DNA from: Hyphomicrobiaceae bacterium
Lineage (GTDB): Bacteria; Pseudomonadota; Alphaproteobacteria; Rhizobiales; Hyphomicrobiaceae
Direction of reading: 5' to 3'
DNA: 64,000 bases
Assembly (NCBI GenBank): GCA_022844225.1
Contig: JALHMC010000006.1
Coordinates: 62,001 to 126,000, forward strand
Under the pieces are notes generated by a model, which saw only the letters and a program-made list of their open reading frames with translations, did not search any database and was not told where the DNA came from. A program made the translations under genes and the position numbers. Shown in pieces: positions 18,012 to 19,254 of this stretch. How positions within the stretch are numbered: position 1 is the stretch's first letter; the number at the start of each line of letters is the position of its first letter.

Positions 18012-18046
18012 GGGGACGCGAGTTGTCGCCCGCATCCGCGGCTAGA

Positions 18047-18184
18047 TCACCACCAGAACGAGAAGCCGGTGCGATAGTACGGGCGGTATCCGTAAGTGCA
18101 ATAGCCGTAATATCCGTAGTGGCTGTAAGAGTAAGTCCGATAATAGTGTGGCCTGTCATAGTATCGGGGAGCATACCCGGCATA
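18047..18184 (-). pseudogene. Tyr/Gly-rich secreted protein remnant
   Basis: Read on the minus strand, this stretch gives 45 codons of extremely Tyr-rich sequence (APRYYDRPHYYRTYSYSHYG, then GYYGYCTYGYRPYYRTG and FSFWW) before TGA. An in-frame TAG at 18185-18187 cuts it from a short upstream piece (EAAPHAYRPH), and no signal peptide or start is found. It resembles the C-terminal regions of the two intact neighbours at 18237 and 18949. The ORF-track frames here (18004 and 18008) are in other frames and look like shadows. Confidence 0.45.
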
Positions 18185-18236
18185 CTAATGAGGCCGATAT
18201 GCGTGCGGTGCGGCTTCACCCGCACCGCCTCATAGC

Positions 18237-18560
18237 TTACCGACCGCGGTTGTTTCCAAATACGCGAGAACGATACGACTCCCCATAGGGGTAGTAGTTG
18301 AACCGCTCCCGGTAGTTGCCATAGCCGTAATAGCGGGGTCCGTAGCTGTAATAACCGGGCCCGCTGCGGTAGCCGTAATGGCGATGGCGCTTGTAGTATT
18401 GATGATTCCGCCAGAGATCGCGGGTGCTATGCACCTTCTCGATCGCTCCCGCCTCTACAGCGAGAGGCTTGCCGATTGAAGGTCCGGCGGCTTGGGCCGG
18501 AGCCCACGCTCCTGCCGTAAGTGTGAATACAAGGCCAACGGCCAGCAATCTCAGTCTCAT
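18237..18560 (-). CDS. Small secreted Tyr/Gly/Arg-rich protein
   Basis: 107 aa. The start is ATG 18560 on the minus strand with AAAGGAG upstream; the ORF-track start at 18617 is too long. A Sec signal peptide (MRLRLLAVGLVFTLTAGAWA, cleavage after AQA) is followed by a short linker with VEKVHSTRDL-like character and a low-complexity tail rich in Tyr, Gly, Arg and His (YKRHRHYGYRSGPGYYSYGP). Such proteins are common and mostly undescribed in Hyphomicrobiales. A cell-surface or metal-binding role is possible but not shown. Confidence 0.7.
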   Translation of the reverse strand: MRLRLLAVGLVFTLTAGAWAPAQAAGPSIGKPLAVEAGAIEKVHSTRDLWRNHQYYKRHRHYGYRSGPGYYSYGPRYYGYGNYRERFNYYPYGESYRSRVFGNNRGR

Positions 18561-18948
18561 CTCGGTCTCCTTTCGAGCAGCTTGCTTCGCTGCGGTCGAC
18601 ATCCCCTGCGGATGCAACGAGGCCGGGACCGAAAAGTTCGGAAATGAACGAGCCTTGAGAGTTTGCCGATTTCACGATGCCGTGAAAGTCCGCCCGCAAT
18701 GGAGATCGGTCACATCAGTCACAATGCGGCCGATCAGCAATAGGTGTCTAAACAGCCTCCAGTTTCAACTGGAGGCTCTAACGGGCACGATCAACAACGC
18801 CGGTGCCCTCCACGGTGACCGGAGTGCCGGTGCTGCAGATGGTTAGGCCGGTAGACCCGATAAGGCCGGGAAAATTAGTGCTCTCGACTTGCGTGCACAG
18901 CACCGGTCTAAAGTGACTGCGGATTGCCGAACGCGCGCGGTTCCCCGA
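18561..18948. other. Non-coding spacer with a perfect 10-bp inverted repeat
   Basis: 388 bases between two minus-strand small secreted protein genes. The plus-strand ORF-track frames here show no family features. The only structure I see is GCCTCCAGTT (18755-18764) and its exact complement AACTGGAGGC (18767-18776) around a two-base centre. It could be a terminator for the gene at 18949 or a palindromic binding site. No T-run follows on either strand. Confidence 0.45.
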
Positions 18949-19254
18949 CTACCAGCGGCGATAGTGGTGCCGATGTCTGTAGTGCTTACGATAATACGGG
19001 CGATGGTAGTACCGGCGCTTGTAGTAGTGCCTGGGCCGGTCATAGTAGCCGTAGATTCGCGGCACGCTGTAGCCATAATACGAACGGTAGTGGCGCCGAT
19101 GACGATAATGCACTTGCTCGACGGCGCTTGCTGCCTGGATTTGCCCACTTGTCACGACGGCCGCCGCCGCACCAGCGTTGGCCTGCGATGTCACGCCGCC
19201 GTAGCCGAACGCCGTGGCAATAGCCAACGCCGCGGCCAAGATGAAACGTCTCAT
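18949..19254 (-). CDS. Small secreted Tyr/His/Arg-rich protein
   Basis: 101 aa with a Sec signal peptide (MRRFILAAALAIATAFGYGG, cleavage near ANA). A short Ala/Val/Gln segment leads into a tail dominated by Tyr, Arg and His (HYRHRRHYRSYYGYSVPR, DRPRHYYKRRYYHRPYY), ending HHYRRW. GGAGG lies six bases upstream of the ATG. It shares architecture with the gene at 18237 and the fragment at 18047, although the tails are not simple copies. The strong positive charge suggests binding to an anionic surface polymer or nucleic acid; that is inference only. Confidence 0.7.
   Translation of the reverse strand: MRRFILAAALAIATAFGYGGVTSQANAGAAAAVVTSGQIQAASAVEQVHYRHRRHYRSYYGYSVPRIYGYYDRPRHYYKRRYYHRPYYRKHYRHRHHYRRW

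Follow-up and report, generated by a model that had tools for sequence, protein, structure and literature searches.

P1 and P2, two small tyrosine-rich proteins with predicted signal peptides, belong to an unnamed Hyphomicrobiales family that has an N-terminal module in common with BA14K proteins

The 64 kb window analysed here (the whole 64,000-nucleotide stretch of DNA from a Hyphomicrobiaceae bacterium) contains two small genes, P1 and P2, whose products are members of an unnamed multi-copy family that is largely restricted to Hyphomicrobiales. P1 is a conserved, old gene of its genus, and its Tyr-rich tail is under strong purifying selection. We favour the reading, with a probability of roughly 45%, that P1 and P2 are exported, disordered, polycationic and aromatic proteins that would bind anionic polymers of the cell envelope. 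The features of the locus are as follows.

18047–18184, minus strand: remnant, a 45-codon Tyr-rich tail (18050–18184) followed by TGA
18185–18187, minus strand: in-frame TAG immediately upstream of the remnant tail
18205–18228, minus strand: 9-bp GC hairpin just past the P2 stop and before the remnant (z = −3.1)
18237–18560, minus strand: P2, intact Tyr/Arg/Gly-rich gene with ATG start, 107 aa
18567–18573, minus strand: Shine-Dalgarno sequence AAAGGAG of P2, 6 nt before the ATG, read from the sequence
18754–18777, minus strand: perfect hairpin of 11 bp in the P1–P2 intergenic space, ~170 nt downstream of P1 (z = −3.0)
18949–19254, minus strand: P1, intact gene with ATG start, 101 aa
19260–19264, minus strand: Shine-Dalgarno sequence GGAGG of P1, 5 nt before the ATG, read from the sequence

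The original prediction of two intact small genes, rich in Tyr and basic residues and equipped with good ribosome binding sites and with signal peptides that predict secretion, is confirmed. Like the remnant, both genes lie on the minus strand, which the prediction had left unstated. P1 consists of a signal peptide (residues ~1–27), an Ala-rich linker, the junction SAVEQV (43–48) and a basic/aromatic tail (49–101) with an ending of the RRW/RHW type. In its mature form, Tyr accounts for 22% and Lys, Arg and His together for 36% of the residues, with a pI of 10.5. The AlphaFold2 model of P1, built from the single sequence, has one helix from residue 2 to 54 with low to medium confidence and an unstructured tail with pLDDT values of 45–51. 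P2 follows the same layout with a signal peptide at ~1–24, an Ala-rich linker, the junction GAIEKVH and an aromatic/basic tail; mature P2 contains 18% Tyr and 23% Lys, Arg and His, and its pI is 10.0. The composition of this locus is exceptional for the window. Across all six frames, the top 60 Tyr-rich stop-free stretches of 40 codons (9–16 Tyr) fall within P1, P2 and the remnant. When the whole window was simulated 100 times with a first-order Markov model, no stretch had more than 5 Tyr in 40 codons.

Among 60 related genomes searched, orthologues of P1 are present in three congeneric MAGs with 80%, 60% and 43% identity (contigs LNDR01000363, LNEM01000009 and JANXRM010000245, all from Rhizobiales/Hyphomicrobiales MAGs). 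In all three, the orthologue adjoins the same fumarase-beta-like gene (90–99% identical), and in two of the three the same CaiB-type gene flanks the opposite side. The fumarase-beta-like gene served as the anchor for finding these loci because a search of the named genome contigs with P1 alone returned zero matches; a plasmid collection likewise gave no match, either to P1 or to a related family member encoded in a relative with a large genome. The original prediction hinged on conservation of the reading frames in relatives, and frame, place and tail of P1 are indeed kept in the congeners.

P2 and the remnant have a different history. The intergenic space measures ~1505 bp in the window vs ~670 and 614 bp in the two congeners with the CaiB-type gene. 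P2 and the remnant account for the extra length and have no counterpart at those loci; their absence elsewhere in the congeners is provisional, as these genomes are not all complete. They are a lineage-specific addition that is present in this lineage alone among the four congeners. The insert that carries them (18012–18800) has a GC content of 57% vs 64.5% for the window, and this low GC may point to a foreign origin. In a more distant MAG, whose anchor gene is 80% identical, a different Tyr-rich small secreted protein occupies the same place beside the fumarase-beta-like gene (L059, CADEFX010000032, 1194–1553, minus strand). Homologues of P2 are not found in the congeners at E 0.01, and its relatives within Hyphomicrobiaceae are weak only (best E 5.8e-6).

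The third element was originally taken as a degenerate third copy. Its degeneration is borne out by the TAG directly upstream and by the missing in-frame start codon and signal peptide; the gap between the remnant and the end of P2 is too short to accommodate any signal peptide. To call it a copy is misleading, as the remnant, with 16 Tyr in 40 residues, resembles neither P1 nor P2 at the DNA level and lies nearer to the tails of other family members. A search of Hyphomicrobiaceae genomes at E 0.01 gave no homologue, and we regard the remnant as the dead tail of some family member. Nor do P1, P2 and the remnant form a cluster of copies in the sense of a recent tandem array, with two of the three absent from the congener loci. 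Recent tandem duplication is ruled out by a DNA self-similarity that never extends beyond 14 bp.

Both hairpins fold better than their shuffled sequences (z about −3). The one at 18754–18777 is a possible transcription end of P1, from which it follows that P2 would have its own promoter. The one at 18205–18228 is a possible terminator lacking a T run. Together they suggest separate transcription units, with the remnant beyond the end of that of P2. A consensus terminator scan called neither hairpin, and the 64 kb window gave no hit when scanned for Rfam families or tRNAs.

Comparison of P1 with its nearest orthologue reveals the tail as the constrained part of the protein, more conserved than the head. 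For the tail, dN is 0.065, dS ~2.1 and dN/dS 0.03, vs a dN/dS of 0.20 for signal peptide and linker. With dS near saturation in a short gene the exact ratios are soft, but the direction is clear in the raw proportions too (tail pN 0.06 and pS 0.70; head pN 0.16 and pS 0.52). Tyr is kept at 15 of 16 and Arg at 13 of 15 tail positions. Fast evolution under composition constraints, as originally proposed for these tails, is not supported between orthologues; the divergence on which that proposal drew is one between old paralogues. An extreme low-complexity tail can thus be under tight purifying selection.

The family extends far beyond this locus. A profile of 11 sequences (A2) finds matches in 87 of 103 Hyphomicrobiaceae genomes at 1–7 copies each, and a profile of 28 sequences (A3) in 98 of 249 genomes of the order, with ~6 among those sampled elsewhere in the class; these genome counts are approximate and partly circular for the training rows. 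A decoy profile from 14 reversed members matched in 0 of 102 genomes. In leave-out scoring, real proteins reach a mean of 54 bits vs −7 when the mature part is shuffled. Shuffling of the linker alone or of the tail alone costs ~17–18 bits each (to ~36), and because either shuffle lowers the score, residue order is informative beyond composition both in the linker with its junction and in the tail. With relatives of at least 50% identity left out, P1 scores 58 bits and P2 42 bits, the latter against 27 other rows, and both lie above all 60 shuffles. Against a smaller profile of 10 rows, P2 reached 12 bits, where the best of 200 shuffles gave 15.8.

In the profile searches, neither Pfam, NCBIfam nor PDB returned a family or match covering P1, P2 or their relatives, and the literature searched for Tyr-rich secreted proteins of Hyphomicrobiales gave no report. 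The members are probably annotated as hypothetical throughout. The family is apparently undescribed, and its link to BA14K is apparently absent from the libraries and literature searched. It occurs in most Hyphomicrobiaceae genomes and in many from the wider order, frequently as several copies per genome, and matches nothing in Pfam, NCBIfam or PDB. The genome of the window itself holds at least one further intact paralogue (L066, C5:12916–13203). After the junction, L066 reads R-R-C-H-R-T-R-Y-G-x-R-C-H-R-V-W, and it has a close relative in the congener G001 (L029/L104). In a variant from genomes of 6–8 Mb (L106, L110, L112–L114), the sequence after the junction is C-N-x-W-G-x-C-x-W-R-P-N with a Tyr tail; this variant has a conserved Cys pair, and the two members searched against Pfam, L106 and L110, gave no match. 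Two genomes of one genus carry a family member (L088, L092) beside a gene that we take to be queF-like, encoding 7-cyano-7-deazaguanine reductase. A conserved operon partner is not seen next to the family genes. Most of 49 sampled family genes are preceded by a purine-rich ribosome binding site similar to that of P1, with the proviso that start choice for these 49 genes favoured such a site.

The members follow a common design of signal peptide, short Ala-rich linker, V-E-x-V junction and a basic/aromatic tail of 45–70 residues composed of Tyr, Arg, His, Gly and Pro. Mature proteins carry a median net charge of ~+14. A junction of the V-E-x-V type marks the border from linker to tail in 24 of 49 members vs 3.5 by shuffling. 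Acidic residues are concentrated just before the tail, at 0.19 per position; the remaining linker has 0.05 and the tail itself 0.013 (49 members). An unsupervised Gibbs search recovered the tail repeat R-x-Y-R-P-Y and not the junction. Two endings recur, ...RRW/RHW and R-P-G-hyd-x-hyd-x-F. The latter marks a subclass, with 14 of 43 members passing a test for alternating hydrophobic residues vs 0.6 by shuffling, in a sample whose relatives are not all independent. This ending has the residue spacing of the beta-signal at the C-terminus of outer-membrane proteins. That it serves as a BAM-recognised signal on a disordered protein of ~100 residues strikes us as very unlikely; if true, the family would represent a new means by which the outer membrane receives a polycationic and aromatic coat.

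A lead to a role comes from the BA14K proteins. Two profile matches, L121 and L021, turned out to be the N-termini of BA14K proteins. Of 24 BA14K proteins taken from related genomes, about 10 start in the same manner, with signal peptide, linker, a V-E-x-V-like junction and a basic segment, and several score 13–29 bits, where shuffles are mostly negative. Examples of the junction are SAVENVQYRRYYRR, SGIEQVQFRR (L140) and VQEVQWR (L148); the loci with a matching N-terminus also include L139 (SAVENVQYRR), L149 (IEKVQLRR) and others. The N-terminal module is found with different C-terminal ends (L121, L021, L139–L159). In the literature, BA14K proteins figure as surface antigens, poorly characterised and listed with a lectin-like activity (PMC6304850). 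They are reported to be secreted and to depend on CenR (PMC10592609), to rank with the strongest targets of EcfG in B. abortus (PMC12354254) and to be induced by heat in Mesorhizobium loti (PMC3989490). This link to surface antigens and to envelope and general stress regulation in Brucella gives the family a testable envelope role. Transfer of the role through the N-terminal module is indirect, since other regions of BA14K may be what the lectin-like annotation refers to.

On this basis we propose that a Sec-type signal peptide would export each member and that the exported tail, predicted to be disordered, may bind anionic envelope polymers such as LPS, capsule or exopolysaccharide, or peptidoglycan. 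Contacts would combine the charge of Arg and His with stacking of Tyr and Trp. The proteins would then coat or stabilise the envelope in a non-enzymatic manner, the same general job as that presumed for the BA14K surface proteins.

A chaperone or stress shield, in which a basic disordered protein keeps envelope proteins soluble under stress, is an unlikely but serious alternative. Such a role has been suggested for other periplasmic proteins of basic, repetitive sequence, e.g. Asr, and the strongly basic tail is disordered in the model. The Asr model matches 4 of 28 family members weakly (best E 0.0075), yet P1 and P2 give no match to the curated model (NF033636), and Asr is not known to be Tyr-rich. 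The BA14K relatives are stress-regulated (PMC12354254, PMC3989490), and a near-match to the EcfG promoter, GAAC-N16-CGTT, is located 79 nt upstream of P2. Family-wide, EcfG-type sites (GGAAC-N15-18-CGTT) are not enriched upstream of the 49 members, with 1 strict site vs 0.24 expected and 4 relaxed sites vs 1.7, in contrast to the regulation reported for BA14K.

We consider it improbable that the tails act as a periplasmic metal or heme sponge, with a His/Tyr-rich disordered segment that chelates transition metals in the manner of SilE, a disordered periplasmic Ag+ binder (PMC5008109). Mature P1 has 9 His, some members (L066, L011, L118) carry a Cys pair just past the junction, and one relative weakly matches the RiPP metallophore model HvfA (E 0.014, 16 bits vs a cut-off of 95). 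Against chelation, P2 contains no Cys and just 4 His, Cys is missing from 38 of 49 members, the common features of the family are Tyr and Arg more than His, and a metal transporter or regulator is not seen among the neighbours.

A structural matrix protein that self-assembles or is cross-linked through dityrosine, along the lines of the coat proteins of sulfur globules, appears more doubtful still. Tyr reaches 28% of the mature protein in the family, Tyr-Arg-Pro runs of the type R-x-Y-R-P-Y recur, and the Tyr positions are kept under selection. Neither a peroxidase nor an assembly partner is seen next to the genes, and the strong positive charge opposes self-assembly unless a polyanion is present. 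Finally, a Tyr-rich reading of repetitive or compositionally odd DNA that encodes no protein could appeal to the low complexity and to the lower GC of the P2–remnant insert, but it is hardly credible given the conserved frame, ribosome binding site, synteny and dN/dS of P1, the Markov control and the reversed decoy, and it stays slightly open for P2 alone because only P2 has no orthologue.

Among known systems, DUF2502 (PF10697) matches weakly over the tail of P2 (E 0.05), its 14.3 bits staying below the cut-off of 27, and P1 gives no match. Asr resembles the family as a small, basic, low-complexity secreted protein. The sulfur globule proteins SgpA/B/C of purple sulfur bacteria are exported, low-complexity, aromatic-rich and structural, and are likened to P1 and P2 by description only; Pfam and NCBIfam returned no sulfur globule model for any family member. 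At least one gene of Bradyrhizobium bears the sulfur globule name (PMC13207237). Like P1 and P2, the members of BA14K (PF07886) are small exported proteins of Hyphomicrobiales, often with several copies per genome. The difference lies in the C-terminal BA14K domain of 30 residues, which is missing in P1 and P2 at the Pfam cut-off and has zero matches at E 0.1 in the 28 family members searched; no BA14K protein turned up in the genome of the window, whose completeness is ~85%. Judged by their sequences, P1 and P2 are not BA14K members, but they have in common with them the N-terminal module that does not define the Pfam family, with its V-E-x-V junction in the form of SAVEQV in P1 and GAIEKV in P2.
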